Source: Dasypus novemcinctus
Lineage: Eukaryota > Chordata > Mammalia > Cingulata > Dasypodidae
Length of the DNA stretch: 64,000 bases
Assembly (NCBI RefSeq): GCF_030445035.2
Contig: NC_092216.1
Location: 11,843,405 to 11,907,404 of the forward strand
Direction of reading: 5' to 3'
In this document: positions 23,463 to 57,300 of the stretch, piece after piece
How positions within the stretch are numbered: the first letter of the stretch is position 1
How the letters are laid out: the number at the start of each line of letters is the position of its first letter
Notes under the pieces: model-generated
The model's database searches: none
Told to the model about the DNA's origin: nothing
What the model saw: only the letters and a program-made list of their open reading frames with translations
Made by a program: the position numbers and the translations under genes

Positions 23463-25930
23463 CTTTCTTTCTGTGGAGTCAGAGGTCTATGTCTCTCAGA
23501 AGATTTGGGAAACTTTCAGCCAATATTTCTGCCTGCTTTTCCCTTCTCTTCTTCTTCTGGGATGTCTATAATGTTCTTCTTTGTGGGCATCCAGTGTCTT
23601 CTTAATATCCTTAATCTCTTTGCCATCTCATTGAATTTATTAAGGAGATTTGTTTGAACAGCTATGATTAGTTGTCTCAACTCCTTTATGTCACCTGGAG
23701 GCTTATCTTGTTCCTTTAACTGGGCCTTATCTTCCTGTTTCTTGATGGATTGTAATTTTTCATTGGTGTTTTGGCATTTGGTTTAGTATAGTATTTATTC
23801 TGGGTGCAGTTTTTCTTTTATTTTAGAGCTTCCTACACTTTCTGCCTTGCTGGTTGTATAGTAGGACCCAAGGATGTAGTTGGCAATATAAGCTGTGGAG
23901 GCTCAAGTTGCCCTCACTGCCCCATGGACCAAAAAAGTTTCTCCCAACTTTCTCCTTTGCCAGGGTTTGGGACAGAGTCACAGCTGTGTGGAATAATCCA
24001 AGTCATGCAGGCCTAGACTGTAGTTGCCCAGAGAGACTGACAAAGATTCACACCCCCATCTCCCCTGCCTGACATGGGGCTGGAACTGTAGGTGTGGGCA
24101 GCAATCTATGCAGTATGGGTCCAAGATGACCACAGTTGCCCTAGTAGACTTTTTTCCATTCAATTATTCAGTCTGTGCCAGGCAAATTTACCTGCAGTTA
24201 CTTGGATAGGTTGGTTCAGGGTCTGCCAGCCTCCTCCCTGCCAGAGGTGGGGCTGAATCCTAGTCTAGGGTTGCAGGCTGCTCTGGGTGGAAGAAACCAG
24301 TTTGTGCCATCACCATGATTTTCTTCGGTCAGCCTGACTTCCCCTTATGCAGGGGCAGAGTCAAAATGGCAGCTACTGGCCTCCTTCTGACTTGGACAGA
24401 TTCACACCCCAGCTGTTCCCAGGTTATGCTTTAGTCAGCTGTGTCTCCTAATCAGTAGCCAAAATTGGTATCCAACCATCTCCTCCTTCCAAAATCCAGC
24501 CACAGAATAGTTCCAGGGGGAGTTTGTGCCACCAGAGCCAGAGTAGGATAATTGCCAGCCTCTGTGGCTTGGCGCAGGTCTTGGCAGCTTCCTCCCTGCT
24601 GGAGGTAGGGCTGGGGTCTAGGCTAGAGCTGCAATATGATTGGGATGGAGAGAAGGTGGTCCCTACCAGCACCATGATTTTCATTCCACCCCATCTCCCC
24701 TTATGCCATGCATGGAGTTAAGATGGCAGCCACAAGCTTCTTTCTGACTTGGACAGGCTCAAACTTTAGCTGGTTTTTAGGGTTATACATTAGCCCACTA
24801 AACTTACTAATCAGTAGCTGAAATTGGTACCCAACCATCTTTTCCTCTGCCATTTTTGGGAACTGTAGCTTTTAGTTCCAGCCACTGAATAGCTCCTGAG
24901 GTGGCTCATGCCATCAGTGGAGGATGGACTCCAGCCTCCATGGCGTGGAGCACTCTGTTTATGAATCTTCTCTGCAGATGGGCAGTCTCCTCCCTCCATT
25001 CCTTTAAGTATGTTGCAGGATGCTCTTCTGGCTTCCTGAAGCCCCTAGACAGGAGCTTCAGCTGGCTCCAGAGAGCTCTGGGTGTTTGCTAACTGCCCTG
25101 TAGCAGGAGCTGACTCTAGCAGCTCCTTACTTCTCCACATCTTGCTGGTTCCTCCATTATCATTTATGTATATTTACAATTTCTTCAGCATGTTATCCCA
25201 GTGCCTTCTTAATATCCTTAATCTCTTCCTTCACTTCATTAAGGTGCTTCACAATATGTGTTTGGACATCTCTGATTGCTTGTTCCATGTTCTATATCTT
25301 CTGCTGTTTAGTTTGTTCATTAGATCCTGGGCCATGTGTTCCTGGTTCGTAGTATCACTTTAATTTTTTGTTCAAGTTTAGGTATCTGTTTATCTGTATG
25401 GGTTTATTTGGTTGGTTTGCTATTATTTCTAGTGTAGAGTTTTATTTTGTTGTTTTTGTGTATGTGGTAAGGTTTTACTTTGATGCTTCATTTCTTTTAT
25501 TCTATTTCCTTGCTATTGTTTATGTTCCCTTAGGTGGGGAAATTAGTACCAGGGAAAAGGAAAGAGATAAGAATAGAGAAAGAATAATAGCAATAATAAT
25601 GAAAAAATGTAGGAGAGGAGCCATACTCAGGCCAAGGAAAATAAATAATTATTAAAAGTAAAAATATCATAAGAAGTACAGAATACAGGGGAATATGAAT
25701 AGAAAGTGGAACAGAAAAAATGAAATGAGAAATAAAATAGAGGAAGATATATAGAATCAATTAAAAGGTTGGAATGATAAGGAGAGAGGTTAAAAAGAAA
25801 AAAGGAAAGGGAAAAAGAAAGGAAACAAAAAAGAGAAAGAGAAAGAGAAATAAAAAGAAAAACGTTGAAGACCAAAAAAATGAAGTGGAATGAAAGAAAA
25901 ACAACAGAAGATACCATAGGTAGTTAGTGG
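23463..25930 (-). mobile_element. L1 5' part (ORF1/5'UTR side), antisense
   Basis: After a short ORF2 remnant the sequence jumps to ORF1/5'UTR-side material with coiled-coil-type antisense text (CTTCTTAATATCCTTAATCT occurs twice, near 23600 and 25205), a G/C-richer stretch at 24000-25080, and a purine-rich tract at 25555-25910. The endonuclease end of ORF2 is missing. No intact ORF1 is present. Confidence 0.5.
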
Positions 25931-28140
25931 GCAGAGGGTCAAATCTTGTGCAGTGGTAAGGACTGGGATAGGGAAGCACAAGTCATCAATGTTGGAGCTG
26001 TGATGAGGAAGCATTTGACAGAAAGTTTAAGTAGCGATAAGAGGAAACACAGTGCATTCAAGACTGGGCATGTTAAGAACGGGATGCAAAAGCACAGTTG
26101 TCCACTAAGACAAGAAAACACAAGAAAGAGTAGCCAACACTGTGATGTATAACCATATAGCAGAGAGTGAGTGATTTGATAGAAAATAACAGTGCAGATA
26201 TGTCAGCATGAGGATGGAGGAGGAAAAAGGAAATGCTGTAACACTGTGATAAGAAAACAAGGGAATAACTGTACAGAGCAGAGGGTTCAGAGGACACCCC
26301 AAATTAAAACTAAAGAGTAATCACCTGTAAAATAAGGAAAGCATATTCACAGTAGCTGAACTTATTGTTATTAATAAAACAGAAGTAGAGAGGTATGATT
26401 TTGAAAGCAAAGGGAATAGTAGTCAATCCTGTAAATGAGATCACAGGCAGAGTGATGAGGACTGGGATAGGGAAGCACAAGAACAGTGGTCAAAAATTCA
26501 TAAGAAAGTACAAACAGTGGAGAAAACTAGGAATATGATGCACAGGGCAGATGAATAAAAGGTGTGATAACAGAAACACAAAGATGATGAGATTATATGA
26601 TGAGAGATGGCTAGGACAGAATGGTCAACATTCTGTTTAGGAAGCATTGACTTAATGATGACAATGAGTATGGTATTAACAAGGTAAATCAATGCAGTAA
26701 AGTGAAAGCATTGAAGAGAATGAACCATGTAATGAAAAAGCAAAAGGTGGAGTGGAAAAGGCTAGGATAGGGGAGGACAGGCAGGTAGTCAGGGCTGTAC
26801 TGGGGAAGTACAGGCAGAGTAGTCAACAGTAGAGTAGGAAAAAAGAATGCTGAGTAATCAATGCTTTATGGTGAAAAACAAATCAGACTGGTGATGACTG
26901 GGTTCAGGAAGATTAGATAAGGGAAAGAACAGCAGTTTCATTGCAGTGACAGTGTAAGAGCAGGAAGAATCATCAAAACTTGAATGTGGAATGACAGGTC
27001 AAGTGCCCAAACTGTGATGGCAAAAGCAGAAGTATAGGGTAGTGTTGTCAGGACAAGAGATGAAATGGTCAGGGCACTGTAAGAAGAAAAACTCCAAATA
27101 AAGTGTTCAGGACACATATGTGGGAACCACATTCATTGGTCAACTGTGATAAGTATCACTGGGTAGAGTGGGTAATGCTGTGATCAAGAAAAAGATAGTA
27201 TAGTGGCCAAGAGAAGGATTGGAGTAGTATAAGCAGAGTGTAAATATTGTTATAGGATAAGCAAAGGCCATTCTCTGATAGGAAAAGTACCGAAAAAACA
27301 AACCGTTCAAAGCTGTGGAAGGGAATACCATGGCAATGCATTCCATGCTGTAATTGAGAAAACAAATGGATATGTTATCAAGGATAGACAAGGCAAAGTG
27401 ATCAGGTTTTACCAGGATAAGTACTGGGCAAAGCAGAGGTAGGGAAACTCATGGCAGAGTTCAATGTTGTAATATTGGAAACAATGGGTAAAGTTGTTAG
27501 GAATGTGATGGGGAAATCAGGGCACAGATGACAATGCTGAGATGTGGGAGGACAAACAGAATGCTCAAAACATGGAAATGGGACAAACACATGCAATGCA
27601 TCAGCACTGTAATTGCATTGCAAAGGACAAAGTTATGAAGAGTATGTTGAAAAAAGCATAAGGCAGAGAAATCTGAACTAGGTTTGGGAAACAATGGCTA
27701 ATTTGACAGTTTTGTAAAGGTGGAAGATCTGAATAGAGATGGGGAAATTTAGGGAATAATCACAGGAAGGGGTTATAGTTCTCTGACCTGGGATGGGATG
27801 CACGTTGACAAGAGTCAAAACTGGAATGGGGAAGCATAGGAAATGTGGAAATCAAAGGCAAAGTGCTCAGGACTAAAAAGAATGCACAATATGAAGTGTT
27901 CAAACTGTAATGGGGAAGAAACAGCAGAACAGTCAATGCTATGGTGGAGAGGTAAAGGTTAGGTTAGTGAATGCTGTGTGGATTAAGAAAAACGGAGTGT
28001 TGTCAGGGAAGTAATGGTGAAGAACAGGAGTAGAGGATTCTGAGGTAGTAAGTAGAGGCTGACATGGTAAAGAGCAAATGTGTAAAACATGGTAAAGTAT
28101 ATGTGAAAAACCCACAGCTAGCATTGAACTCAATGGGAAA
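25930..28140. repeat. Degenerate ~35-bp tandem repeat, block 1
   Basis: Diverged copies of a unit close to AGCACAAGGCAGAGTGGTCA followed by ATGCTGTGATGGGGA. Examples start near 26774 and 26807. Copies vary in length and sequence, and the array ends where sense L1 text begins near 28140. Open frames on both strands are artefacts of the repeat. Confidence 0.7.
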
Positions 28141-28930
28141 GACTGAAAGTTTCCAGCCAAGATCACAAACAAGACAAGGATGACTACTGTCTCCACTTTT
28201 ATTCAATATGGGTTAGAAGTTCTATCTAGACTATTAAGTTAAATAAAGAAATAAAAGTCTCCCAAACAGGAAAGGAAATAAAAACTTTTATTATTTACTG
28301 AAATGATCCTATGTCTAGAAAGTCCCAAAAGTCCTTAACAAAATTTCTAGGACAAATGGAAGAGTTCCTTAAAGGGGGGGATAAAAAATTAAATATAAAA
28401 AAATTTAGTAGAATTTCTACATACTTCTAAGCAAGCTGAGGAGGAAATCAGAAAAAAAATTCCATTTATAGTAGCAGCTAGTAGAATGAAATATTTAGGA
28501 ATAAATTTAACTGAGGACATAAAGTAGGTGTATTAGAAAACTACAAAACCTTGCTAAAAGAAATCAAAGAAGAGTAAAACAAATGGAAGGACATTCCATG
28601 TTCATGAACTGAAAGACTAAATATCATTAAGGTGTCAATTCTACACAAACTGATTTACAGAGTCAATATAATAATCCCCCTCCAAATCCCTACAGACTTT
28701 TTCCCCAGAAATGGAAAAGCCAATTATCAAGTTTTTTTGGAAAGGTAAGGGGCCAGAAATAGTCAAAATGTCTTTTGAAAAAAGAACAAGCTTGAGAACC
28801 ATCACTTTCTGACTGTTACTTAGCTACATTGGTAAAATAAACAAACTGATGATATTGGCACACAGTTGAATAGATTGACCAATAGAACCAAATTGAGAAC
28901 TCAGAAAAAGACCTTTACATCTATGGTGAA
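28140..28930 (+). pseudogene. L1 ORF2 fragment (RT), sense
   Basis: Reads CCAAGATCACAAACAAGACA, CTACTGTCTCCACTTTTATT (the RT palm region), then AAATATTTAGGAATAAATTT and CATGTTCATGAACTGAAAGA, all typical of L1 ORF2. It is truncated at both ends and full of stops. It stops where a minus-strand L1 3' tail begins near 28931. Confidence 0.75.
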
Positions 28931-31900
28931 GTGAATTCTTTAATAAATAAATTTTATTGATACATATTAATAAACATACAATTTACCCAAAGACTAAAAT
29001 CAGTGGTATTTGTTATAATCACAGTTGTGCATTCATCACTTCAATCATTATTAAAACATTTTTATTATTTCAATAATTATAAAAAAGACAAATGAGAAAA
29101 TTCCTCACTTTCCAATCTCTCTATGCTTCCGCCACCATACATGGTTGCTATTGCTGGCTATTCTACCCAAAGTGCTTAACCAATGGTTTTAGCATTATCC
29201 CAGTGTTGTACATTCATTCATCATCTCAAAATTTTAGGACAATTTCATCAATCCTAAAGGAAAGACTCCAGACCCCTTGGCATTACTTCCTCAGACCTAC
29301 ATAACTACTAATCTCATTTCATCTTTATAAATTGATTTATATTTACATTTTACATAAATGAAATTATATAATATGTAGTACTCTGTGTCTGGGCTCCTTT
29401 GCTTAGTATAATGGGTTTTTGGTTTGTTTTTGTTTATTTGTTTGTTTTTTTGGCCTATATTAACATTTTGTACTTTAGTTTTCATGTGTTCAGCTTCAAA
29501 GAAAAACAGTCATATATTCAATTCTACCCATATTCATATTTCACATAATACATTTATATTTCACTTAATATATTTAGTTCATAATAGGGTATTTTTCCTT
29601 TGGTGTCTGCCTTGCTTCACTCAAGTTTTCTAAGATCATCCATGTTGCAATATGTTTCATGACATTCTTCTTAGCACTTCATTATATTCCACTATGTGAA
29701 TACTCCACAATTTTTCAATTCACTCATCAGTTGATGGACACTTGGGCTATTTTCAACTTTTGACTATCACAAATAATGTTGCGGTGAACATAGATGCCTA
29801 TTTGTGTCACTGCTTTCAGTTCTACTGGGTATATACTGAGCAATGGTATTGCCAGGTATCATGGCAAGTGTATATTCATCTTCCTTAGGAACTACAAAAT
29901 AGTCCTTCACAGTGGCTGTACCATTCTACATTCCCATCAAAAATGAATAAGCATTCCTAACTTTCCACATCCTCTCCAACATTTACACTTTTCTGACTTA
30001 ACAGCAGTCAGTTTAGTATGTGTGAAATGATATCTCTTTGTAATTTTGATTTAAATTTCCTTAATTGCTAGTGATATTGAACATTTTTCGTGTGTTTCTT
30101 CACCATTTGTATTTCTTCTTTGAACAGTTGTCTTTTCAAGTTTTTGCCATTTTTTAAAATCAGATACTTCATCTTTTTATTGTTGAATTGCATGCTCTCT
30201 TTATATATCATGGATATTAAAGCCTAATCAGATATGTAATTGCCAAGTATTTTCTCCCATTGAGTCAACTGCCTTTTCACCCTTTTGACAAAGTCCTTTA
30301 AGGTGCCAAAGTGTTTAATTTTGAGGAAGTCCCACTTATCTGTTTTTTTTTTCTTTTGTTTCTTGTGCTTTGAGATAAGGTTTAAGAAGCTACAGCCTAC
30401 CACAAGATCTTGACGGTGTTTTCCTACATGTCTTCTAGATGTTTTTTAGTTGTTCTTATTTAAATCCTTGATCCATTTTGAGTTAATTTTTGTGTAAAGT
30501 GTGAGATAGGGATCTCCTTTCTTTTGGATAATGGATATCCAGTTCTCCAAGCACAATTTTTTAATAGACTACTCTGGCATATCTAGGTGGGCTTAACAGC
30601 CTTGTCAAAAATTGCTTGACTGTAGATGTGAGAGTCAATTTCTAAGTTCTTGATTTGGCTCCATTGGTCAATCTGTCTGTCCCTATGCCAATACAGTGCT
30701 GTTTTTGCCACTGTAGCTAAGTAATATGCTTTAATATCAGGAAGTGAGAATCCTCCAACTTAGTTCTTTTTTAAGACATTTTTTGACTATTTGGGACCAC
30801 TTACACTTCCAAATAAATTTGATTATTGTCTTTTCAATTTCTGCAAAAAAAAATTGTTATTGGGATTTGTATTGGGATTGCATTAATCTGTAAATTAGTT
30901 TGGGTGGAATTGACATCTTAATATTTAGTCTTCCAATTCATTAATTTAAGTCTTTCTTCCATTTATTTAAGCCTTCATTTTCTTTTAACAATTTTTCTAG
31001 TTTTCTGAATACAGATCTTTTATGTCCTTGACTAAGTATATTCCTAAATATTTGTTTTACTTGCTATTATAAAGGGATTTTTTTTTCTGATTTCATCCTC
31101 AGATTGCACATTAGTAGTGCATAGAAATGCTATTGATTTTTGTATACTAACATTGTATCCCACGACTTTCCTGAATTCATCTATTATTTCTAGTAACTTA
31201 TGTTATGGATTTTTCAGGATTTTCTAGATAAAGAATAGTGAAAAAGTTTTACTTCTTCCTTTTTAAATTTTAGTGCCTTTTATTTCTTTGTCTAGCCTAA
31301 TTCCTCAAGCTAGAACTTCTTTCACAATGTAAAATAATAATGGTGACAGCATCCTTGTCTTCTTTCTGATCTCAGTGGGAAAGCATTCGATCTTTCACTT
31401 ATTGAGTGCTATACTGGCTATAGGTGTTTCTATATACACTTTACTGTATTGAGAAAGCGTTCTCATATTCCTATCTTTTGGGGTGTTTTAGTTTTTATCA
31501 AGAAAGTGTGCTGTATTTTATCAAATGCTTTTTCTGCATCAATTGAATGGATATATGATTTATCTTCTTCAACTTATCAAGATGGTTTATTACACTTACT
31601 GATTTTCTTGTGTAGAACCACCCTTGTATACAGGAATAAAATCCAATTAATTGTTGGTGTAAAATTTTTTAATGTGCTTTTGGATTTGGTTTGCAAGTAT
31701 TTTGTTGAGGATGTTTGCATCTATAGTCATTAGAGATATTGGTTTACAATTTTCTTTTTTCATAGTATCTTTATTTGACTTTGGTATTAGGGTGATTTTG
31801 GCTGCATGGAAAGAATTTGATAGCATTCTTTTGGAAAAGCTTGAGCAAGATTGGTAATAGTTCTTCTTTGAATGATTGGTAGAATTCACCTGTGAAGCCA

Positions 31901-32447
31901 CCTGGTCCTAGGCTTTTCATCTTTGGGAGGTTTTTGATGACCATTTCGATCTCTTCCCTTGTGAATGGTTTTTGAGGTCTTCTATTTCTTCTAAAGTCAG
32001 TGCAGGTGGTTCATGTGTTTCCAGGAATTTGTCCTTCTCATCTACATTTTCTAGTCTTTTTGCATACAGTTATTCTAGTACCCTCTGATGATCTCTCTTA
32101 TTTCAAAGGTCAGTGGGAATGTCCCCCTCTCATTTATGATTTTATTTATTTGCCTATTCTCTTTTTCTCTTTGTTAGTCTAGTTCAGTTTTGTTAAATCT
32201 TCTAGAACAGCCAACTTTTGGTTTTGTTGATTCTATTGGTTTTTTATTCTCAATTTCATTTATTCTGCTCTGACCTTTACTATTTCTTTCCTCTAGCTTC
32301 GTGTGAGATTAGTTTGCTATACTTTTTTCTAGTCCTTCCATGTGTGTAATTTATATCATGTATTTTAGCTCTTTCTTCTTTTTTAGTGTAAGCACTGAAA
32401 TCTATGAATTTCCCTCTCAGCACTGCCTTTGTGGTGTCCCATAGGTT

Positions 32448-35400
32448 TTGTTGTTGTTGTTTACTTTCAAAGTTTTAAAAATTCTTTTATTTAATTGACT
32501 TTTCTTAAAGATACATAGATCACAAAAAATATGACATTAAAAAATATGAAAGGTTCCCATATACTCCACACCCCAACCCAGCCCACTCCTCCCACATCAA
32601 CAACCTTTTTCGTTACTGTGACACATTCATTGCATTTGGTGGATACATTTTGGATCATTGCTGCACTGCATCAATTATAGTTTACACTGCAGTTTACACT
32701 CTCTCCCAGTCCATTGTGTGGGTTATGGCAGAGTATATAATGTCCAGCATCTGTCCCTGCAATATCATCCAGGACAATTTCAAGTACCCAAAATGCCCTA
32801 ATGTCAATATTGCTTCTTCCCACTCCCTGCCCTCAGCAAATACCATTACCTCTGTCTCCACATCAATGATACCATTTCTTCCATTACTAGAATCACAATA
32901 ATTTTATAGTAGAACACCAGTAAGTCCACTCTAATCCATATTTTGTTCTTTATCCTGTGGACCCTGGGATGGCGATGTCCACTCCACCTCTTAATTGAGA
33001 GAGTGCTTATATTCCACGTGGTTGATGGATGCAATTACCTACATGCAGTTGTGGCACACTTGGTTCTTTGGTGTGGTGGTTGAACATATTCACCTCCCTG
33101 CTAGCTGACCTGGGTAAGTCCAACGAACAAAAGGGTAGGAGTTGCAACTCTGCTGAGGCTCAGAGCCCAGCTGGCACATGGTCAGTCCAGAGATTCAAGT
33201 TTCCTGAGTATACACCAACTCCAGCATCAACCACAGGTTCAGTAAAAGTGACACATGAAGCATGTATAGAAAGTGCACATCTGAGTCCAACTCCATCACA
33301 CTCAGGAATACAAATTCCAAAGTAGGACCCACTGACAAGGCACTGAAATCCAGAGCCATCTGCCATGACCATTGAACCTGTGTGTCTCTGTAGCCCTCAG
33401 GAGCACCAGTACCTGAGTTGCATTTACATAGCTGTCTCTTGGATCCTGCTGAGACAGGCATAAGTGTGACCCCTCTGATGACCTCCTGACTGTTTTATGA
33501 AGACTCTTAGCCATATAAACTCATTTGTCTTTACCATTTTCCCCCTTTTATTCAAGGCCTTTTTGTAGTTGCATCACAAGCTAGTGATTGGTAATAGTCC
33601 CTCAGCACCAGGGAGGCTTATCTCCAGGAGTCATGTCCCATGCTGAGGGGCAGATAATGCATCTACATGCTGAGTTTGCTTAGAGAGTGGCCACATTTAA
33701 GCAACATGGAAGCTCTCAGGAGGTAACTCTTAGGCACCCTGCAGCTCTCAGCCTGGTTCATATTTCAGGCACACAGGCTCCTAAGCATAGTCATCAGAAT
33801 CAAGGGCTCATTGGACCATGTTTTTCCACTGGTCTTTGCCCTTGCATGGGGGGAATTGTTGCTGCTCCATTAGGGAATGTTACAGAGCTCCCCTGGCTAG
33901 GAACTCAGTACTCACTCAGTTGTCATTTGTAACTCTAACTACTATGAAAATACCCAACGAATATCTGAACATTTTTATAAACCCTATATACATGCCCTGG
34001 AATATTCCCAACCATGCATACCTCATCAATAACACCTCACACCAGTGTTCCTCCCCTGCCACAGTTGAGCACATCTGTGGTCCAAAACTTCTTCAAAAAT
34101 GAAGCCTAATATCTTGCCAAATTCAATTGGTAGGAAAATGAAATAGTAATGATAAGTTTAAAAATTAGAAATAGAATACATACTAATTTAGAAAAACTAA
34201 AATAAGAATTAAATTGGGGTTTTAAAAAATAAAAAATAACAAAACTTTGTTTTTGGTGTTTTGCCTTTCATCATTGCAATAGGTGTTTCCCTGTATGTAT
34301 AGTAGCAAGGCAATTTCTTTCATTCCTTCCTCATTGTCTACATCATTTTATTTTTAATTTTGTCTTCAAAAATTTTTAGATCACAAGAAAGTCACCTATG
34401 CAATATAGGGGACTTCAATATTATCCAACATACACCCTTTTCCCCCTTCCCCTGGAATGATCTTTTTACATGTTTTTGTTATATTTGCTGTAACTGATGT
34501 ACAGATATTGAAACATAGCTAACAAACATGGTTCTATTTTGGTTTATATTTCAGACTGTACAATTTTCTAAATTTTTACCTTCATTATGATTTATTTATG
34601 GCTTACATTTTAGCCTATAGACTTTTATATATTTTTGGTGAAATTTACCTTGTCTGATATCCACCTTTGCATGATCTTATGGAAAACTTCCATTGTGCCC
34701 CAGTGACCCTGCTTCCATCTATTCTACTCCTGTCTCCCCCTCTCCTCAGGGTGCACAGTGACAACCAAACTTCACTGTTTGAAGGACCAGATTCACATGA
34801 TACTTGCAACAATGCAGAGGGCTTGACACTCTAGAATGTCCTCCCCCATTGGGAGGCATTAATTCTCTTGAGGGACACAATTCCCTATGTCTGAGAACAT
34901 CAGGCATCCCCAGGATATGGGTACACCTTCCCACTCATTGTATGGGTCTCCACCCAATGATATAATGCAATGATATTACAAGATTAGGATTCATACACTT
35001 CCTACAAGCCTGTCCCTGTGCCAGATGTCCCCTATTAATACCTTAAACAGGCAACCCTTCCTTATTATATTATCTAAAGAGTTTCCTCAACATTATAGTT
35101 TCAAGCACATACTCAACAATGCCCTTTGCTCATGTTACCCCTCTTCTTCCCCCAATACCTTGGGACATCTGACCCATCCTCCCAACCCTAGACCCCCTCA
35201 AGTCTGCACAGGCCTACCCAATAGTATTCCTTTATCCTCGTCTTATCCCTTCACTGTACTACTACTTACCTCCAATTTACCATAGATTTCACCACGTAGG
35301 TGTCAGCTCACTAATTTCCTCTCCCTGCCACCAATTCCTGTAAGCCTATCATCCAGTCTTTAGCTCTCTGAGATAGCTTGGTTTGCTTATTTCATATCAG

Positions 35401-36251
35401 AGAGGTCATGTAATATTTGTCCATCAATGCCTGGCTTACTTCACTCACACAAAGTCCTCAAGATTCATCCATGGTATCACAAATGTTTGTACTGTATTCC
35501 TTCTTACAGCTGAGTAGTATTCCATTGTATGTATATACCATGTTTTGTTTACCCATATAGCTATTGATGGGCATTTGAGTTGATTCCAACTTTCGGCAAT
35601 AGTGAATAATGCTGCTATGAACATTGGTGAGCATACATGGGCTTGTGTCCTTGTAATAGGTAATGTCTCCATGTGCTTTACACCCAAATACAAGCAGCAA
35701 AAGAACAAACAGATTAATGGGAACTCTTCAAAATTAAAGTCTTTTGTACCTCAAAGGAGTTTAAGAAAGTGAAAAGACATCCTACCCAATGGGAGAAAAT
35801 ATTTTGTAACCATAAATCTGATAGGAGACTAATATCCTGCATACATAAATAAATCTTATACCTAGAAAGTAAAAAGACAAACAACCCATTTTCAAAATGG
35901 GGCAAGAGATTTGAACAGATGCTTCTCCAAAGAAAAAACACAAATGGCTAAAAAGCACATGAAAAGATACTCAAAGTCACTAGCTATTGGGGAAATGCAA
36001 ATCAAAACTACAATGAGACACCATCTTACTCCCATTGGACTGGTGGCTATTAAAAAACCAAGACTACAAGTATTGGAGAAGATGTGGAGGAACAGGAACA
36101 CTCATCCACTCCTGGTGGGAATCAGAAGGATCCAGCCATTCTGGAGGACAGTTTGGCTATTTTCCAAAAAACTATCTATAGGTTTACCAAATGACCCAGC
36201 AATTCTACTACTGGGTATATAACCACAAGAACTGAAAACAAGGACATATCT
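32448..36251 (-). mobile_element. L1 insertion with two-unit 3' region and 5' inversion
   Basis: A 3,804-bp insertion into an older L1, flanked by CATAGGTT at 32440-32447 and 36252-36259. Right to left, the minus-strand part runs from about 35660 (end of ORF2: TWYIHTMEYYSAV, PWMNLEDFV) through unit B (34345-35400) and unit A (32448-34330) to a T-rich boundary. From about 35660 to 36251 the sequence is ORF2 in plus orientation (ATGCTTCTCCAAAGAAAAAA, TGGCTATTAAAAAACCAAGA, CTACTGGGTATATAACCACA). This inverted 5' end is the signature of twin priming. Confidence 0.8.
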
Positions 36252-36630
36252 CATAGGTTCTTATATGCTGTGTTATCATTTTCATCTCAAGATATTTGCA
36301 GAACACTTTCACAATTTCTTCTTGATTCAATGATTGTTTAAGAGCATGTTGTTTAATCACCATTTATTTATGAATTTCTCCTTTTTCCATTCATTTTTAT
36401 TTCCAGCTTCATTCTGTTATGGTCAGAGAAAGTGTTTTGTATAATTTCAATCTTTTTAAATTAATTGAGACTCATCTTGTTCACAATATATTGTCTGTCT
36501 TGGAGAAAGGATTCATGAACACTTGAAAAGAACATATAACCTGTTGTTTTGGGGTGCAATGCTCTATTGATGTCTGTTAGGCCTAGTTCATTTATCATAT
36601 TATTCATTCTCTCTGTTTATTTATCCTCTG

Positions 36631-37200
36631 TGTTGGAGAAAAGCGGCACTTACCGGGACATGGAGACTGACTGATGACAGGCAGAAAATGTATTTATTGG
36701 GAAGCTTTTCTAATAGAGGGATTCTGAAGAACAGATTTTGGGCCAGCCCCCCACCATGGTGGGGGTTTGAAGAGAGACTTCAGCCCCCTCCTGGAAGAGG
36801 GGGATTTGAATTTATACAGGCCTTTCCTTGGTGCGGAAATGACAGCTGGTGGGAGGTGGTTGAGGGTTTGAGTGAAGTGTAGGGACCAATAGGAGGCCCT
36901 AGAGATGAAATCTTTCCCTGATAGTGACTAGAAGATAGTGAGTTACAGTGTTATGGTTTCTTGGAATGCTGCAGGAGCAGATGTTTCTTTGTTCTGTAGG
37001 GATTTTATCTCTCTCTGATATGTAGTTGGGGAAGGTTTCCATTTCCCTTTACTCCCATTTCTATGTGGTTTCTTTGTTTAACCTGTGGGGAAGTGCCGTG
37101 CCCTTAGACCCATAGGCTTATGGGGGATGAGGTTAGCCTTTCCCCAGTGCATATCAGGGGAAACTGAGCTACACTTGTTAATTACTGCAAACTTCTAACA
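36631..37200 (-). mobile_element. Solo LTR with 5-bp TSD
   Basis: 570 bp, starting TGTTGGAGAAAAGCGGCACT and ending ACTTCTAACA, flanked by CTCTG at 36626-36630 and 37201-37205. L1 ORF2 reads through the empty site. A minus-strand AATAAA (plus GTATTTATTGGG near 36695) puts the LTR on the minus strand. No internal retroviral sequence is left. The family is not identified. Confidence 0.82.
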
Positions 37201-39926: not shown

Positions 39927-39931
39927 ACTTC

Positions 39932-43246: not shown

Positions 43247-43250
43247 TTTT

Positions 43251-43268
43251 TGGGGGCTCTCCCAGGAT
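43251..43268 (+). other. Primer binding site, tRNA-Pro type
   Basis: TGGGGGCTCTCCCAGGAT matches the proline-tRNA site of gammaretrovirus-like elements at 15 of 18 positions, a few bases after the LTR end. Confidence 0.75.
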
Positions 43269-46200: not shown

Positions 46201-48936
46201 TAAAATGTATTAAAAAAAAAAAAAGATTAGTTTAGTTTTCACATAAAAGAAGAATATATTGATTAATGTAACCTGGCAGCCTACTGCCTCAGTCTCTCAC
46301 TCCCGGGTTAAACAGCAACAAAGGAAACCAGCTTAAGCCAGTCCTATAGGCAATAAAAAAGATACTCAAGAAAAATCTAAGTCAATACCAATTCAGCACT
46401 AAATTCCATTCCTTATCTAACAAAGGGGAGCAGATAAAAAACTAAAATGGTTGGAATGTGATGGAGGAAGCGGTTAAATCACAAACTTTTGAGTGGGAAA
46501 GTTAGATCTTCTCAGATAGGCTGTAACTTCTGAAGTACCCAATTTATGGAGAAACAGAGGAAGAGCTCATGTGATAGGCTTAGGGGTATAAATTGTGTCA
46601 TTTTTCTTTGTTCAGGGTGCCAGCCATGTTTTCTGGTCATGTGCCCCATCTTGCAAGATTGAGAATAAATTCTTTTCTTCTCCACAATAGGGTGAGGCTT
46701 ATTTTCTCCCAGAAGAAAATTTCTTTCCAACAAAAATAAAGGTAATTAGTGGCTCTGTTGACAAATTTCAGTAAGTAAAAAAAAAAGTCCATAAAAACTA
46801 TGGAGAGATCTTTCCTGGACTATTATTAAACAAATTAAGTAATTGTGTAATGTGTTTTGAAAACTGGTAATCAGTATGCTTTTAAAAATTACTCATTTTC
46901 ACAACTTAAACAACAACAGCAAAAAGTTTTAGCTTCCTGTAAAAATAAAAAGAGAACATTCCTTGCATAAACTATAATGGTTTCAATTTTATTTAGCTTA
47001 AGTGTAATCTCCCATAGTTAACTTATAAACTAAATTAACATTATACATACAAAATCTTTAAAGTAATAAAACTTTAAGTTCACATTAATAAAATTAAGTT
47101 AAAAAAGATTGTAGATATGATCTCTTAAAGAAATTAAATTTCTTTGGTTAGTAATTATAATTTACTAAGTTTATTTAAATGTAAGGTAACTAGTCAATGT
47201 GGTTGTAGTCAATTATAAAAAGTTTGTAAAACATCTTCCAAACTGAAAACATTTAAATATTTCTAGTTCTAGAAGTCATTGTTAACTAAAAACTTGGATT
47301 GGTATTGGTTGCAAAGAATAACTTCGTGGTAATAAAACCTGTCTGAAGGCCACCACAAGGTACATATTTAAGTAAATGGTAATAAAAAGTTATCTTGATT
47401 CTACTGGGAATCTTCTGTTTTCATTTTAACAATGGAAAATTGTTTTTTTCCATCTATTACTAAAGTAAAATACCTACTATTATCTTCATGGTAAAATATA
47501 TAAGTAAACAGTCTTTTGATATATGATATGTTGCATTAAATTGCTTAAAATATATATAAAAACAAGGAATAATCTTTAACATTGTCAAACTCTTTCGTGC
47601 ATTCAAACCAGGCCTTGAATGCATTACATGTTGCCTCTCCATGTGAGTTATTGGCTAGGCTGGTCACTGACCCTCAATTAGAAATATTTGCTATGTCAGC
47701 CTCTGGTTCTGCTACTGAAGTCAATGGAAACTACGGTGCAGTTTCAAGCTCCTGCAGCAGCCGATGATGACTCGGTACAACCAAGTGTACAATGGATATT
47801 GTCTCCAGACTGGCATTGTGCACTATGCACCAGAAAGCACTATGCACCAGGCTGGTAAAATACTGGAAACTCTCTCTAGAATCAATGATGCTGTGACTTG
47901 CTCACTGGGAAGAACATGCTAAGTGGAGCCATGATACCAAGATACTCTAAGTAAAACTTAAACACAATTGGCATTATGGCCTGCTCCCATGGAGAGATAA
48001 CATGTAAAGTATTACAAAACTGAAATTTAAAACTATTAATTGCAACTCTAAATCCTTTGCATTAAGTAATACATTAATTAATATTAAGTGCTATACTCTT
48101 ATCCTGTACTAAATATATGCCTAATAATTATAATGTTATCTTTTATATTTTGGATCAAGTGCAAAAGTATATTAGACATGTTAAATTCTTAGTAAATTTA
48201 TTTTCTAAACAGTTAATAAACATGTCTATAGAATAAGGTGGCAGTCTCAGCCAGGCTCAGTCAATTTACTGTATTCTACTGTACTCTACTGTGTAGCAGC
48301 AAAAATGAGGCTTGCTTGCTAATAATGAGTCACCTATTGACAAATTAAAATTACTAGAAATTGTACAATTAAAACCAAAATGTAAAAAAACAAAACAAAA
48401 ACCTTTATTCACTCCCACAGCTAAAAACTAAGAAAATTTCCAACTTGGTATACTAATCCTGAATGAAACTAATTGCCCAAAGGGTGCCAGTTCACCAGGA
48501 GCATCTGACAGAACACATGAGTGCCAATCATTGAACAGCTTGAAATGTGTCTTCAAACAAAGCTAAGTATCTATTGCAATTTCCCTCTAAAAATAAATAA
48601 CTTAGAAAAAGTATATATATATACACAGTTCCCACCAGCTTTTTAAAAGGAGTGCCATTGTTATAGGCACCTAACCTTGTCTACCTCTGTAATCTAATGT
48701 CCTCTTTTAAAAACAGGTATTCCAAATTTTTAATTAAATTTGTTTCTTTCACAGTGAACATTTTATTAACCATATGAAAACTTCATCCAACTTTGTACAG
48801 AATGCCAGATCCATCTTCCTCCAGTTAAAATAAAATAAGTTTTACACCTTGTTAGGCAATGACTACAGCCCATGACCAGCAGGAAGCAGTTACAGAAAAG
48901 AGATCATTTCCCTTCAGCACCGATTTTAGATTAAAG
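43269..48936 (+). other. ERV1 internal region, non-coding
   Basis: After a leader with a splice-donor-like CAGGTGAGTAC near 43500, the region is AT-rich and without long open frames. No retroviral zinc knuckle, YxDD, integrase or envelope motif was found on either strand. An LTR-like stretch (46455-46735, with GAGAATAAATTCTTTTCTTC) may be a further solo LTR, but no exact duplication flanks it. Confidence 0.55.
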
Positions 48937-49455
48937 GTGTAATGCGATCACCCCTCGGGCTGAAGTGTGGTTTGCTGGCCTGGCGGGGGAGCGGCCGCGG
49001 CAGGCCAAGCCGCTGCCCCCATAATAGGGTGGCCGGTCGGACTCACCGCCACCCCTGAAGGGAGCTTGGCATGGGCGCAGAGTGCCCTCGGGTCTCCCCT
49101 TCTCGGCAGCCATGCTTCCGCGGCTGCCCCTCCTCCCGGATGGCGCCACACGATGCCTGTGGGGCGGCACCCTTCTTCTTCTTTCTCCCTGTGCAGGCAC
49201 AGGGCGGAAAATTCCAGTCTGCCCTTTTCCCCTCCCCCGACAGCAGCAACAGCCAGGCGTGGGCGGGAAACTCAAGTCTGCCCTCCACCCCAGCAACAGC
49301 AGCCACCAATCCCTAAACCCTGCCCCTTCCCCCAGCAACAGCGACAGCCAATCCCTAATCACCACCCCTCCCCCATCCAGTACCACCCACTGACCTTTCG
49401 CTGGCAACCAATCAGAACAGGGTGTGGCTTCGACCAATCAGCCTTCCCCAGCCCC

Positions 49456-49484
49456 TATAAAACTGTTGCCTCTCCCTCAATAAA
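49456..49484 (+). promoter_or_regulatory. TATA box and poly(A) signal of the solo LTR
   Basis: TATAAAA followed 17 bases later by AATAAA, with two CCAAT boxes 20-50 bases upstream. This compact R region is typical of retroviral LTRs and may keep promoter activity in the plus direction. Confidence 0.7.
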
Positions 49485-49666
49485 GTGGACTTGCGTGTTT
49501 ACCTTGTCTCCCCGGTAGTTCTTCTGCTGTGCGCCCTCCAGTCCTGAGAGCCCCCAACAAGGGCCTGGCCTCCCTTGTCCCCAGTTCATCGCCTGCTTCT
49601 CTGGGCAACCCCCTCGTCGCCGGCTTCGCCGGGCGACCCTGTCAGCCGAACCGCGCAACCCCTTGT

Positions 49667-49782
49667 GAGACCGATCCCTCGTCTGCTGCCGGACCGACTC
49701 CTTCTCCCAAGTGGGACCGACCCCTCGTCCCAAGCGGGACCGACCCCTCGTCCAGAGCTGGACCGACCCCTCGTCCGCAGCC
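49667..49782 (+). repeat. ~23-bp tandem repeat in the solo LTR
   Basis: Five imperfect copies of a unit around GGGACCGACCCCTCGTCC plus five variable bases, in the U5 part. Confidence 0.85.
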
Positions 49783-50081
49783 AGACCCCACCTCTACCGA
49801 CCGAGCAAGCCGCCGCAGTGTAAACTCTTTAAGAATAAAATAAAATTAATAGATGGATCTGGAACTTGACTGGAAATCCATGTGAGTGCCGGTGGACCCA
49901 GGATGACTGCTGTGGGCCCCCGCCCCAGGATTCTGCTGTCCAAAATAAAAACTTCTAAACTTCTAAAAACAGTCCTGGATGCTATACTGAAGATTGATAA
50001 ACAATCAATCAAAACAACAAACAGCCATCCACCTCATAGCTCCAACAATAATTATGCCAAAGCTTAGCAAGTTAAACCTGG

Positions 50082-50095
50082 GCAAAGGGGGGAAA
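50082..50095 (+). other. Polypurine tract of nested ERV1
   Basis: GCAAAGGGGGGAAA directly before the 3' LTR, the usual plus-strand primer position. Confidence 0.75.
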
Positions 50096-50573
50096 TGATG
50101 TGAGCTATGGGTGGGAGGCTCTTTTTCTCTTCAGAGATAACCTAAGCTGTCTGACTTGTGGGTGTGAGACGGTGAGAGGCTGCAGTCCTGCCCTTCATGA
50201 CCATGGCAACGACTCCAGTCCCAGGAAACAGTTTAACAATGCAAGGTCTATAAACTTTAAATATTCAGGGGAAATGCAAACCAAATGTGCTAAAAGCTTA
50301 TCTAGAATGTATGAAGTCCATGCTAAAAGCTTACCTAAGATGTGGAAGATGTATATGCTAATTCAAGCCTATTGGGAACTGAAACAAAAGGATCATTTAA
50401 CTTTTCCTCTCTGTATAAAAGAAACTCAAAAGTCTTGTTCAGGGCTTGGGTTTGCAACAGGAATCTCCTGAGTCTTGCCAGCCATCAATAAACCATTTTT
50501 CCTTCTCAAAATCATTCCTGAGTCCTGGCCCCTCTATACACAAATAATTGAACCTCTCTCAAATTCTACAATA
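50096..50573 (+). mobile_element. 3' LTR of nested ERV1
   Basis: Starts TGATGTGAGCTATGGG and ends TTCTACAATA, where the terminal CA has mutated to TA. It is followed by the duplication ATAT. Confidence 0.9.
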
Positions 50574-50589
50574 ATATGGATATGAAGTA

Positions 50590-50846
50590 TAACAATATCA
50601 GAAAGAAAAATGAACATCAAGGATTAGTTTTCCAAACCCCTTCTGAATCCATAAGGACAAATTTAATGTAGCAGCCATTGTAACAAAGGGCATTATTATC
50701 CCCATTACTTGGTTTATGAATATACCAGTTTGGGTTGATCAATGGCCCCTTTCTTTGGAAAAAACTTAATGCCCTTCACACCTTGTTCAAGAGCAATTAT
50801 CCTAAGGGCATAATGAACCATCACAAAGCCTTTGGAATTCACCAGC

Positions 50847-50884
<38 letters not shown>

Positions 50885-52300
50885 AGCAAATGGCAGATGC
50901 TCACAGATCTTAGAGGTGTTAATAAAGTTATGAGCCCTTTGGGGACCCTACAACCACGGGTTCTACAGCCCTTTATGATTCCTGAGAATTGGTCTTTGAT
51001 TATTATAGATTTGAAAGATTGTTTCTTTACCATTCCTCTGCATCCTTCTGATAAAGAGAAATTCACTTTCTCTGTTCCTGCTATAAATAATCAATCCCCT
51101 ATGCAGAGATATCAGTGGTGTGTATGTTGCCTCAAGTCATGAAGAACAGTCCTCCTATGTGTCAATTATTCATTCATCAACCTCTATAGGTGCTCAGAGA
51201 AAAGTTTCCTAAAGCCATGATTATCCATTATATGGATGATATATTATTTGCACATTCTTCAGATGACAAGTTACAACAATTATTTCAGTGTGCTGAAAAG
51301 GTGCCTTCTGAGTATGGGTAACAGATTGCTCATGAGAAAGTTCAGTGGAACACCCCTTATTGTTATTTGGGTATGCAATTGGCAAATGGATGTATAAGTC
51401 CACAAAAGATACAAATAAGAAGAAATAAATTAAATACTTTAAATGATTTTCAGAAACTTTTAGGGAACATTATTTGGATTTGATCTAATCTGAGAGTCCC
51501 TAACTATATGTTGCAGCACTTATTCCAAATTTTGGAAGGGGACTCTGACCTCTTGAACCCAAGAAAATTGCTCTTAGAGGCAGAGGAGCAAGTAGTTCTC
51601 ATTGAAGAGTGGGTTTCTCAGGGACAATTGACTCAAATAGATTCTGATAAAACTATAGATTTGGTTATCTTTTCTACCCCACAATCTCCAACTGCCTTAT
51701 TTTAGCAAGATGGAATTTTGGAATGGATATTTATTCCTAGTAATAAAAAAAGATTGCAAACATATTTACAGAAACATTTCTATCATTGCTAAAGGTTGGC
51801 TATGGTTCTTGCAACTTGAAGGGACTGATCCTGATTGAATAATATGCAGCCTGTCTAATGATGAAATTAAATATCTTTATGCTACAAATACAAAATGGCA
51901 AATTGCTATTAGAGATTTTCAGGGAGTTATTGATAACCATTATCCCACCTTTAAGCTATTAACATTTTTACCAAGAACAACATGGATTTTACCAAAAATA
52001 GTTAAATCAGTTCCAATATAAAACCCATTTACCATTTTCACAGATGGTAGTAGCAATGGTAAAGCACCTTATGTCACTCCTCTCGTGGAAAAGGTTTGGC
52101 AAACACTGCATACTTCTGCACAAGGTACAGAATTATCAGCTGTTCTTATGGTCCTGCAAACTTTTAAAGAGCTTCTTAACATTATTTCTGAATCTGAATA
52201 CATTGGTTTGACAGTTATTCAAATTGAAATTGCTATTATCTCTGTAACCAATAAACTTTCTGAAATGCTTCTTCAACTGCAGGCACTTATTCATTAACAA
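50590..52300 (+). pseudogene. pol: reverse transcriptase and RNase H remnants
   Basis: Resumes the class II provirus after the ERV1. RT blocks: PVWVDQWPL near 50725, [15 protein letters not shown] at 50890-50935, [20 protein letters not shown] at 51000-51058, and the YMDD active site at 51229-51240 in a different frame. RNase H begins with FTDGSS near 52037. A run of 29 A at 50853-50881 replaces the short lysine run before SGKW-type sequence. Several frameshifts and stops make it inactive. Confidence 0.85.
50853..50881. repeat. poly(A) tract inside RT
   Basis: 29 A in a row where related RTs have a few lysine codons. The RT text continues on both sides, so this looks like a homopolymer expansion and not an insertion tail. 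Confidence 0.85.
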
Positions 52301-52447
52301 TCAAATTCTCTGTATATTACTCATATTGGATCACATTCTGCTTTACCTAGACATCTGTCTGCGTGTAATGCACAGGCTGATATCCTGGTAGGCTCTGTAC
52401 AGAATGCCACCAAATATCATACTCTTACTCATCTCAACAATAAGGGA

Positions 52448-53248
52448 TTGCAACATAAAGTGCAGGAAATTTTAAGGCATTGTTCTACCTGTGGCCCTCT
52501 CATGGCAGCACCGTTTGATAAAGGCACTAATTCCCAAGGGCTGGCCCTGAATCAAATTTGGCACGTGGATGTTATGCATGTCCCATCTTTTGGTAAATTG
52601 CAATATGTTCATGTTTGTATTGACACTTATTCTCATTTTCTCTGGGCAACAGTGCATAGTGAGGAAAGATTTTGTCATGTTTGTTCATATATGTGGTCTG
52701 CCTTTGCACTCATGGGATGCCCTGTACAAATTAAAACTGATAATGGTCCAGGTTATTCTGGTAAACAATTTGCAAAATTTTGTTCTCATTATTCCCTTGT
52801 TCATATCACAGGAATTCCTTATAATCCTACAGGCCAGACCATAGTTGAATGGTTAAATCATACCCTTAAACATATGCTGTTAAAACAAAAAGGGGGAGAT
52901 GATGATATAATAGTATCAAAGGATCAACTGACAAAGGTTTTATTTACTTTAAATTTTCTTAATGTATATGATTCCATCACACTGGCTGAATGGCATTATC
53001 CTTTAAATAAAGAAAAGGTTTTATCTGGCCAAACTGAATATCAGCCGGTATATTGGAAAGATGTCTTGACTAACACTAGGCATGAAGGGAAAGTTAAAGT
53101 ATGGGGGCAAGGATATGCTCTTATAATTACAGGAGACAGAGAACAAATTTGGCTACTGGCATGGCAGATTAAACAATGGGCAGAGAATAAGACATCCTTC
53201 CTTCGTGATGCTTCACCTCTTCCTGACAACACCAATGATTCTGGGTAA
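52448..53248 (+). pseudogene. pol: integrase, longest open frame of the provirus
   Basis: 267 codons. The end of the HHCC zinc region (LRHCSTC) is followed by the catalytic core, with aspartates in WHVDVMH and KTDNGPGY and the glutamate in IVEWLNHTLK, the D,D-35-E order. A C-terminal WKDVLTNTRHEGKVKVWGQG segment matches the DNA-binding end. The first histidines of the zinc finger lie upstream, beyond a frame break. The D-D-E residues are kept, but the protein lacks its pol context and is not expected to be made. Confidence 0.85.
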
Positions 53249-54818
53249 TGTAGCTGAAAACCATAATTATTGGGCATACCAAATCCACCATTGTTGAGAG
53301 CTTCAACATGGGCAGATTCCCCATTTCCAGTATTTTTAAATAAAATTTGTATTTTCCCAGGACCTATAGATCATTGATTACCTTTGAAACCTGAGGAAGA
53401 AGGAAGAATTATAGTAAATTTAATCTTTCCTTTTGATGATTGTCCTTTGTGTATAGGAAAAGAGCTTCCCTGTATGAGAATACAGAATCACACTATGACC
53501 ATTACTAAAGCCAATGGTACCAAATTGTTTATTACTGTATTTCCATCCTATAATAGTTCTCTGGCCATGTTACAAAATTATAATTGTCCACCACAAGAAC
53601 AAGATGATGAAGAAAGATGGTAAGATTGTCATAAGGGAAGAGGAGATGTCACTTGTAATGATTCCTACAGAATGGTATGGGACAGTGCCCCTATGGGGTA
53701 TCCCACTAATAATAGTGGCAGCTTTACATGGTATGGGGTGAACAATAGTCTACTTAGTGCTAGTGGACAACATCCTTTTCTATGGTTCATGAATGAAAAG
53801 ACTATTATTTACTAATAGATCAGTTATTTGGAAAAACAAAGGAAGGTGGTTACCTTCCCCATGGACTAATTGTACACAAATTGTTCAGAGAAATTTATGG
53901 AAAGCATTTCTTGGATTAGCCCCCACTTATAAGTGGCTTGGGAATAAGAACAACACTGGACACTATCTTTTTTTTAATCAAACATGTTATTTCAAGACAT
54001 GTGTACAAGATCCCTACATTTTGTGATAGGAAAATTAGAAATTAGAAATCAAACCCTGTTTTGTAAAAATTGTACACTATATACTTGTATTTTTGAAAAT
54101 ATTTTACAGGAAAATGAAACTATCATGGCTGCTTGCAGAAGAAAAGGAGTATGGGTTCCACTGCAGATGACCAAATGTGGCAGTCATCACCTGAAAGTCA
54201 ATTGCTGTTACATCTTGCACAAGTGTATCTAAAATGAACAAAGTGACTAATAGGACTGATTATTGCTGGGATATTGGAACTGATTGGAATAGTAATAGCC
54301 ACTGCCACAGCTGCTATTGCATTACAAGCAACAATGCAGTATGTGCATGATTGGCATAGAAAAGCCAGTGACCTATCATATTGATGAGCAGCTTAGTAAT
54401 AGTTTTATGATTTAGAATCTGCTATATTTCATAATGGAGATCAATTACATAATCTAAACTTACTGAGAAGCCTTAAGTGTGATTGGAATGAAAGCAACTT
54501 CTGTTTTACACCACTTGTCTATAATTCTTCAGAGATAGAATGGGAAAAATTTTTTTAAATCATTTATTGGGCCACAAAACAAATATTTCATTAGAAATTG
54601 TTGAATTGCAAAAGAAAATATTAGAATTGTTTCAGAATCAGATACATGTAGCAACTGATAAAGATGTTTTTTTCTGATTTAATTTCTCATGTTATGAAAC
54701 TTAACCCTATAAATTGGTGGAAATCACAGCAGTTTATATCATTCTGAGGAATAGGGATGGCTGTTTTAATAATATTGCTTATAACAATGGCCTGTCTTAA
54801 TCGATATGTTACAAAGTG
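53225..54818 (+). pseudogene. env remnant, class II type, defective
   Basis: Follows integrase with slight overlap, as in betaretroviruses. Fragments of the surface part (cysteines and N-glycosylation sites at 53384-54230) lie in different frames and are separated by stops. A hydrophobic glycine/alanine-rich fusion-peptide-like segment lies near 54255-54340, and a transmembrane-like segment near 54755-54800. No continuous frame exists. Confidence 0.7.
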
Positions 54819-54992
54819 ATTACAGAGCACCGGCCAGCTGGGATGAGCCAACAACCTTGTTGTTGCATGAGTATTGCAAAAACCCCTCTAAATATTGTGC
54901 CAGAAGAGCTTTGCTAGTAGTCAATGATGGGTAAGACACTTATATTGTGATAAGGGCAATCTAAGACAGGCACAGTCACCCTGGCACTGAAA

Positions 54993-55006
54993 CAAAAAGG
55001 GAGAAA
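54993..55006 (+). other. Polypurine tract of class II provirus
   Basis: CAAAAAGGGAGAAA immediately before the 3' LTR. Confidence 0.65.
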
Positions 55007-55390
55007 TGGAGAAAGTAATGACTTGTTGGATGAAGAAAATAAGAAGTAGTGTAACCTAGGAAACAGAACAAGAAAAGAATGTTCTTTGTTAAAACTCCCT
55101 TGTCAACAGGACAGGAATGTCTTTGCTTAAGAACTGTTAGGTCAATAGGCCAGATTAGTAGAAAGAACAAAGTTGCTTTAAAACGTTAAAATATAAATGG
55201 CCTGTCCCTCTTTCTAACAATGAGATAACAACAATGAATCTGTCTCTGCTTTATGGGTTTTTTGTAATGCAAGCTTTTTCTATAAATAGGTTGCTAAATA
55301 TAAATAAACTTGTCTGTTGGCATTGACTTGCAGATTGCCTGATCCCTTCTCTCTTGTTATTCATTCCTTATAACCTTTGGGCTAGATGCA
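55007..55390 (+). mobile_element. 3' LTR of class II provirus
   Basis: TGGAGAAAGT... to ...CTAGATGCA, homologous to 39547-39926 throughout. The right flank enters the 35-bp repeat array. Confidence 0.8.
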
Positions 55391-57300
55391 ACAATTCTAT
55401 CTTAGGATGTATAAGGTAGGATGATCAACACTATGGGGAAAGACAAAGCAGAGTGATCCACACACTGATGGTAAAGCACAGACAGGATGGAAAGTACTCA
55501 ATGGGACAAGTACATGCACAGTGCTTGAAACATGATGGATGAAATAGAACAAATTGATCAATTGGTAATGATGGAAGCATAAGGCTGAGTGGTCAGTGCT
55601 ATGATGGGAGAGCCAAAGACAGAGCAGACAATATTGGGTGTTGAAAACACAAAAGCAGAGAAATCAACACTATGAAGGCAAAGCACAAGGCTGGATGATC
55701 AAAGTTGAGATGGGGGAGAATTGGCAAAATGGTCAATGCCAGCAAATGTTTCTATAAAGAAATAGCAGGAAGAGTAGTCAAAAAAGTTAAGTGGATAGGT
55801 TCCTAACTGTGGAAGCATAGACAGAGTGGTTAATACTTTGATGAAGAATAATACATCTTAGTGGTGAGAAGAGTGAATAGACTTGTAAAGGAATAGTTGT
55901 AAAGGAGTAGCCCAGCCCTAGTTGGAGAGGGCTTTCAGTGCTGGGTCGGAGAAAGAACAGGATAAGGAGGTCACTGCTGTGATAAGGACAGCCAAAGAAG
56001 AGTGGTAAATACTGTAATAAAGAAAGAGGCAGAGTGGTCAATGCTATCATACAATTAGCACAGACAAATATGATGAGGGAGGTAAGGGCAGAGTGGACAT
56101 GTAAGTCATAAAGAAAACACTGACAGAGGGCTATATGTTATTATGAAAAAGAACTTGAAAAGTGGTGAGGACAGTGATTGGGGAAGCACAGGCAGGATGG
56201 TCAAGATTGGGATGGAAGAACAGAATATGGTGATCAATATTTAATGGGGAAATTATAAACAAGGTAATTAATGTGATTAGGAAATATAGAATAGTATCTA
56301 CAATGTGATGGAGATATTCACAGCATGTTTTTCAAGTAGGCTATGGGGAAACCACAGTGGTGTCACTGCTGTGATGAGGAAGTTCTAGGGTTGGGGATAT
56401 CACAGAGAATGTTAGCATAACTTTGTTAGGTAACAGAGGGCAGAATGATCAGTACTATAATAGGGAAGTACAGAGTAAAGTGTCGGTGTGGCCATTATGG
56501 AACACAGGAAAGAAAGCCTGGATTGGAGAAACATCTGCCAAGCAGTCAGGAGATATGGGTGAAACATAGGGCAGAATAACAAAACTATTAATAATAATGG
56601 AGGTATAAGGCAGAAGGGTCCAAATTTTATTGGGGTGGAAGAGAGCAGAATGATCCTAGCAGAGATGGAGAAAACACGGGTAGAATTATCAGGGCTGTGC
56701 TGGGAGAAGCTAAGTGTTGAATGATGGGGGAGGAACAGATAGATCAATGCTGTGACTGGGATAGCAGAAGTCGAAGCAGCATTATGCAAGGGAAGCACTG
56801 GCAGCGTGACATAGACTGGGATGGGGAAGCACAAAGCAGAGTCCCCATAACGTGTTGCAGAAGCACAGGTAGGTGGACGGGGCTATAAATGGATTGAAGT
56901 CAATGGTGTGATTTGGAAGAACAAAGCAGAGTAGTCAATACTGTGAAGTAGCAGTACTGATCAGGATATTCATCAATGTGAGAGGAGAATAACAGGAGTT
57001 GGATATGGAGAAAGCAGGGGAGTAAGATCAACATTGTGGTGGGAAAGTATTGGAGAGAGTGGTTAAAGCTGTGGTGATGCACAGGCAAAGTGGGGGGAGT
57101 GTAGAGGATAGGCAGGGAAAAGTTATCAATGCTTTTATGGGCATGCTGTTATGGGAAAATACAGAAATGTCACTACTGTGGTGTGGAAATATGGTAGGGG
57201 CCCTACACAGAAAACAAATGAAAACAGGGAAGAGTAGTCTATGCTATGCTAGAGAACATATGAGTGTTCAAGACAGGGAAATATTACTGAGAGAGGGGGG
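55391..57300. repeat. Degenerate ~35-bp tandem repeat, block 3
   Basis: The clearest part of the array. Consecutive units start at 55576, 55611, 55646, 55682 and 55717 (spacings 35, 35, 36, 35). The unit is close to AGCACAAGGCAGAGTGGTCA plus ATGCTGTGATGGGGA. The right edge blends into unique sequence near 57300. Confidence 0.78.

Follow-up and report, generated by a model that had tools for sequence, protein, structure and literature searches.

Three blocks of a degenerate 35-bp tandem repeat near a probable KDM5D gene of Dasypus novemcinctus, and their likely origin in one minisatellite-type array

Mammalian minisatellites consist of units of 10 to 60 bp repeated head to tail, and the 5' regions of rodent L1 elements carry tandem monomers that are longer than the unit studied here. 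Tandem arrays normally keep exchanging copies, thereby erasing their own history. For xenarthrans, an excerpt of one report describes the sloth satellites SATCHO1 and SATCHO2, with units of 117 and ~2292 bp, respectively, the copies of SATCHO1 varying by about 3%, and cites a centromeric satellite of Dasypus with a unit of ~173 bp (PMC7644632). In this report, we analyzed a stretch of 64,000 nucleotides of Dasypus novemcinctus (hereafter the window), in which an initial annotation had pointed to a degenerate tandem repeat of about 35 bp, split into three blocks next to a Y-linked gene. Our main finding is that the repeat is real, and that its about 150 head-to-tail copies are probably the remains of one minisatellite-type array that was amplified once, then decayed, and was split by L1 elements and a provirus. 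Among the matches listed in literature searches, we found no description of such a 35-bp repeat; six words of the unit, searched in 5.39 million papers, led among those listed to one bacterial paper.

The repeat was characterized with a cyclic profile having match and insert states and allowing deletions, which was trained on the blocks against an order-0 background. Of 12 candidate unit lengths, each trained from random starts, 35 was the best (1478.7 bits), with lower scores at 36 (1438.0 bits), 34 (1383.8 bits) and 24 (482.4 bits), while shuffled blocks at length 35 reached only 189 to 246 bits in all four shuffles. The consensus unit obtained without a seed from blocks 1 to 3 is GGGGAAGCACAGGGCAGAGTGGTCAATACTGTGAT, and each block trained alone, likewise without a seed, gave this same 35-bp unit. 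When a seeded profile of length 34 was trained on one block and used to score the others, all six pairs gained 233 to 462 bits, as compared with means of -66 to -178 bits over 60 shuffles per pair (z 25.6 to 36.7). The reverse complements of the blocks scored -533 to -1091 bits, and the reading on a single strand is therefore firm. Both the degenerate period near 35 bp and the existence of one unit common to the three blocks are thus borne out, the former by the profile period and the shuffles, the latter by the consensus that each block yields alone and by the cross-block scores. Autocorrelation smoothed over five lags peaks at 33 to 34 in all three blocks; unsmoothed, its top lag is 5 in block 1 and 19 in block 2. 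Tandem Repeats Finder, the check proposed by the initial annotation, reported no array of ~35 bp in the blocks, either at the default score of 50 or at a score of 30. The array escapes the program, as its copies match the consensus at only about 65% of positions, and is an example of what this program misses.

A profile scan of both strands of the window returned three segments, 25928-28040 (607 bits), 38318-39527 (345 bits, with hardly any signal before about 38400) and 55403-57279 (584 bits), in good agreement with the blocks previously placed at 25930-28140, 38396-39546 and 55391-57300. In the rest of the window, nothing rises above chance level: the best other segment scored 17.2 bits, against up to 17.0 bits in three shuffled windows. 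Decoding gave 159 units and part-units, all on the + strand and head to tail, with a mean identity to the consensus of 0.649. Block 1 (25928..28085, + strand, about 2.2 kb) holds 61 well-aligned units, block 2 (38394..39546, + strand, about 1.2 kb) 32, and block 3 (55394..57300, + strand, about 1.9 kb) 51. The total of about 5.2 kb that had been estimated was matched (5210 bases were used in the simulation comparison described below), as were the five successive starts 35 to 36 bp apart in block 3, found at 55570, 55606, 55641, 55677 and 55712. The unit of 35 bp lies within the range of about 10 to 60 bp of minisatellites, and its copies follow each other head to tail on one strand as theirs do. 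A search of viral and prokaryote contigs with a 22-base word of the unit hit three and one loci, respectively, and no array: at each locus, a single match stands alone around the word, with scores from 21.8 to 25.1 bits, and one locus (L004) has a second match of 14.1 bits elsewhere.

The array is downstream of a gene, whose stop is separated from the nearer end of block 3 by about 2.6 kb. The features at 59937..61699 (- strand) are probably the last exons of a member of the KDM5C/KDM5D family. The frame 60923-61699 (- strand) contains a PHD finger according to Pfam, together with a PLU-1 match below the cut-off. Over 72% of the query, its identity to a named human KDM5D protein is 84%; a structure-library search with this frame returned 11 other PHD-finger sequences, none of them named KDM5. 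The frame 60268-60705 has no Pfam match and is 82% identical over 73 residues to protein P0014, which we take to carry the C-terminus of KDM5C. The last exon is only 41% identical to the P0014 C-terminus over 49 residues, and the C-terminus of the window gene presumably resembles that of KDM5D. A KDM5D search with the last exon gave nine candidates, none with an E value up to 0.001. In a tree, the window copy has no supported placement, and its end branch (0.061) is longer than those of 15 of the 17 other rows of its clade. Judged by its sequence, the gene beside the array belongs to the KDM5 family and is likely to be KDM5D. Of the claim that the array adjoins a Y-linked gene, the adjacent KDM5-family gene thus stands, and Y linkage is likely rather than proven. 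KDM5D is counted among the ancestral Y genes, and was lost four times, according to an excerpt of PMC7674692.

Instead of a free-standing array, the repeats might be a tandem region inside an interspersed element, such as the 5' part of an L1, a DNA transposon or an LTR element. Block 1 does adjoin the 5' side of a minus-strand sequence that we take to be L1-like (25163..25927, - strand), and block 3 adjoins another repeat-derived sequence with an A-rich tail (57310..58308, + strand), presumably a truncated L1 3' end. However, the window has a single related L1-like copy, at 55-540, which is partly similar to the sequence next to block 1 (K2P 0.546 against 25163-25904) and has the part that adjoins the array there, yet the repeats are absent from it: the profile gives only a chance-level 13.2 bits over a purine-rich stretch, and no array lies alongside. 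Blocks 2 and 3 lie outside both LTRs of the window's provirus, where a retroviral LTR element would have its repeats between them. Moreover, an internal tandem region of 5.2 kb with about 150 units would be unusually big. An origin within an interspersed element is the best placed of the alternatives, and still an improbable one.

The DNA between the blocks had been described as L1 material and one provirus. Both were recovered, the former between blocks 1 and 2 and the latter between blocks 2 and 3, but the provirus contains a second LTR element. The insert between blocks 1 and 2 (28086..38393, both strands) is made of L1-derived sequence and other stretches. Three quarters (75%) of its 10.3 kb resembles other parts of the window, and five stretches of more than 150 bases have no resemblance elsewhere in it. 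By sequence, 35445-35750 (-) and 35866-36222 (+) match solved structures of L1 ORF2; for a further candidate L1 at 31347-31733, no structure match was found. Pfam recognized none of three L1-looking frames, two of which (18507-18833 and 35866-36222) matched L1 ORF2 structures. The insert thus contains L1 sequence and is not assignable to L1 throughout. K2P distances within four other pairs of L1-like sequences in the window, besides the pair of 55-540 and 25163-25904, range from 0.26 to 0.42.

The interrupted provirus between blocks 2 and 3 (39547..55393, + strand) has LTRs at both ends, from 39547 to about 39925 and at 55007-55393, which are 86% identical (K2P 0.156, that is, 0.078 per copy). 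In its interior, Pfam matches a gag-type zinc knuckle, a dUTPase and an integrase, each in a separate open frame. The second LTR element nested in it (42767..50573, + strand) has LTR-like ends that are 94.5% identical (K2P 0.057), with ATAT on either side, and is younger than its host provirus. Within this nested element, a C-rich unit of 23 bp is repeated about five times at 49669-49787. Elsewhere in the window, adjacent direct copies of ~1.75 kb (6790-8571 and 8572-10305; K2P 0.259) make 6790-10305 an old tandem duplication. The stretch 21871-22401 is coding-like and resembles a transporter gene of the SLC45 family in what looks like processed form, a Pfam match being absent in the frame tested. 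A tRNA-Gly call at 13756-13829, which we take to be probably a SINE head, has a related copy on the opposite strand at 42136-42509.

That the three blocks were once a single array, as initially proposed, stands in part. Unit, strand and a similar level of decay are common to all three, with L1 sequence between blocks 1 and 2 and a provirus directly between blocks 2 and 3; that they were once contiguous is inferred from where they lie, how they are oriented and how alike their decay is. Flank alignment and shuffles revealed no clear target-site duplications at the junctions. The provirus flanks, ATTTCA and ATTCTA, agree at four of six positions, and local alignment of the flanks finds nothing; the score of 9 at the L1 junction is attained in 119 of 200 shuffles. 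Across the provirus, the repeat phase, read by hand, is off by about 7 of 35 bases. Such observations would also suit blocks that arose as separate arrays, or as duplicated scattered copies, and never formed one run, as would the slightly greater decay of block 1 (identity 0.632, against 0.663 in block 2 and 0.668 in block 3). On the other hand, blocks 2 and 3 stop within about 20 bases of the LTR edges of the same provirus, all blocks have the same unit on the same strand, and identity across blocks (0.502 to 0.516) is like that inside blocks (0.490 to 0.522). We consider a separate origin of the blocks to be less probable still than an origin in an interspersed element.

The preferred reading, one array that was later split, also agrees with the relations among copies. 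Measured on held-out data, identity to the consensus amounts to 0.64 in block 1, 0.66 in block 2 and 0.67 in block 3, as compared with 0.52 to 0.56 in shuffles (five each). The copies were compared with each other using the 144 of the 159 units that have at least 25 aligned positions, which left out 15. Pairwise identity among these averages 0.505, against 0.506 expected if columns are independent, so that the copies are star-like in their relations. Neighboring units are no closer than distant ones (lag-1 z -0.1); over 30 lags, z is highest at lag 8 (2.8), followed by lag 17 (2.3). The right end of block 2 did not cluster with the left end of block 3, as had been suggested for a broken array, in a comparison that is powerless because neighboring units show no clustering inside blocks either.

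We then compared the array with simulations of star-like decay (one run per setting, with our own rate matrix). The real identity of 0.654 is bracketed by those obtained at 0.45 and 0.55 substitutions per site, and the real 284 bits per kb points slightly past 0.55. Near that range, the real array differs from the simulated ones by more insertions and a broader spread of G retention. Copying units from a neighbor at half time gave, in simulations, lag-1 z values of 3.5, 5.3 and 10.6 when 10%, 20% and 40% of units were copied. Since the real value is near zero, later exchange between neighbors must have been rare or absent. Exchange of units thus probably stopped long ago, with decay of about 0.5 substitutions per site since then. 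The star-like decay also speaks against the continuing differences in array length among individuals that are typical of minisatellites.

The copies may not have started out entirely alike. Columns 27 and 28 show the strongest covariation of 595 column pairs, and none of 2000 permutations of this pair reaches its value, which, at 0.189, is barely above the maximum of 0.187 among 600 pooled random pairs. The commonest pairs at these columns are TG, CA and GA (26, 21 and 19 of 144 units). A mixture of two unit types gains 110.5, against 87.0 to 102.6 in 12 column-shuffled sets, and is not well resolved. The base at column 27 has no clear spatial order along the array; it avoids matching 16 units away (z -3.5, 18 lags), maybe by chance. 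Tentatively, these data suggest that some variant units, with TG, CA or GA at positions 27-28, were present from the outset and scattered along the founding array. Such variants would explain the low retention of A26, A28, T27 and T32. In addition, C24, inside GGTCA, is retained in 0.75 of copies, versus 0.50 to 0.64 at the remaining C positions (P 1.5e-4). Retention also varies among G positions (P 0.011), with a spread of 0.06 versus 0.03 to 0.05 in star simulations. Plain neutral decay does not explain this uneven retention, unless it is an alignment effect; the high C24 and uneven G retention may reflect either weak constraint or the anchoring of alignments. Selection for the array, be it as a series of protein-binding sites or as part of a noncoding RNA next to KDM5D, would account for the same two features but is the least credible reading of all, given copies at about 65% identity with no invariant core, a run broken by large insertions, and no family match in the whole window with Rfam at the gathering score (with block 3 only and E up to 1, Rfam gave a single weak match, E 0.26).

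The single decayed array would have formed in one amplification, by unequal exchange or slippage, after which exchange among copies would have ceased, a loss that would fit a non-recombining Y. The copies would then have decayed one by one while L1 elements and the provirus inserted into the array, leaving it presumably without present function. Its decay of ~0.5 is about six times the 0.078 substitutions per site of each LTR copy, so that, if rates were steady, the time since exchange in the array ended is roughly six times the time since insertion of the provirus. At usual mammalian rates, the age of the array would reach 100 million years or more. The placental radiation is placed at 90 to 100 million years in an excerpt of PMC7674692. 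It is conceivable, though we hold it to be rather doubtful, that the array was frozen before this radiation and that other orders still have it, unrecognized, at the corresponding place next to KDM5D or to KDM5C, the X-linked partner; it would then be a datable fossil satellite of the mammalian Y, one of a class unseen by standard repeat finders. Were it common to other placental orders, the persistence time of satellites on a Y could be tested with it. At this locus, there is no clear trace of exchange since the copies began to diverge, and some 150 of them seem to have started out nearly alike and to have decayed side by side. The array would thus record decay cleanly at one probably Y-linked place, and give a relative clock for insertions.

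Compared with described systems, the array is closest to mammalian minisatellites in its unit length, its head-to-tail order and, presumably, its kilobase size as one run, but differs from them in that its copies are about 65% identical to the consensus, form no local unit families and are missed by Tandem Repeats Finder. As in the case of rodent L1 5' monomers, tandem repeats are found beside an L1 5' end, here at block 1; unlike in that system, the related L1-like copy in the window is free of repeats. With SATCHO1, SATCHO2 and the Dasypus centromeric satellite, as far as these are described in the excerpt cited above, it shares its nature as tandem DNA of xenarthrans, and it is set apart from them by unit length (35 bp versus 117, ~2292 and ~173 bp). 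The array is most likely a dead minisatellite, of a known kind, yet unusually old, decayed, star-like in its copies and missed by Tandem Repeats Finder.
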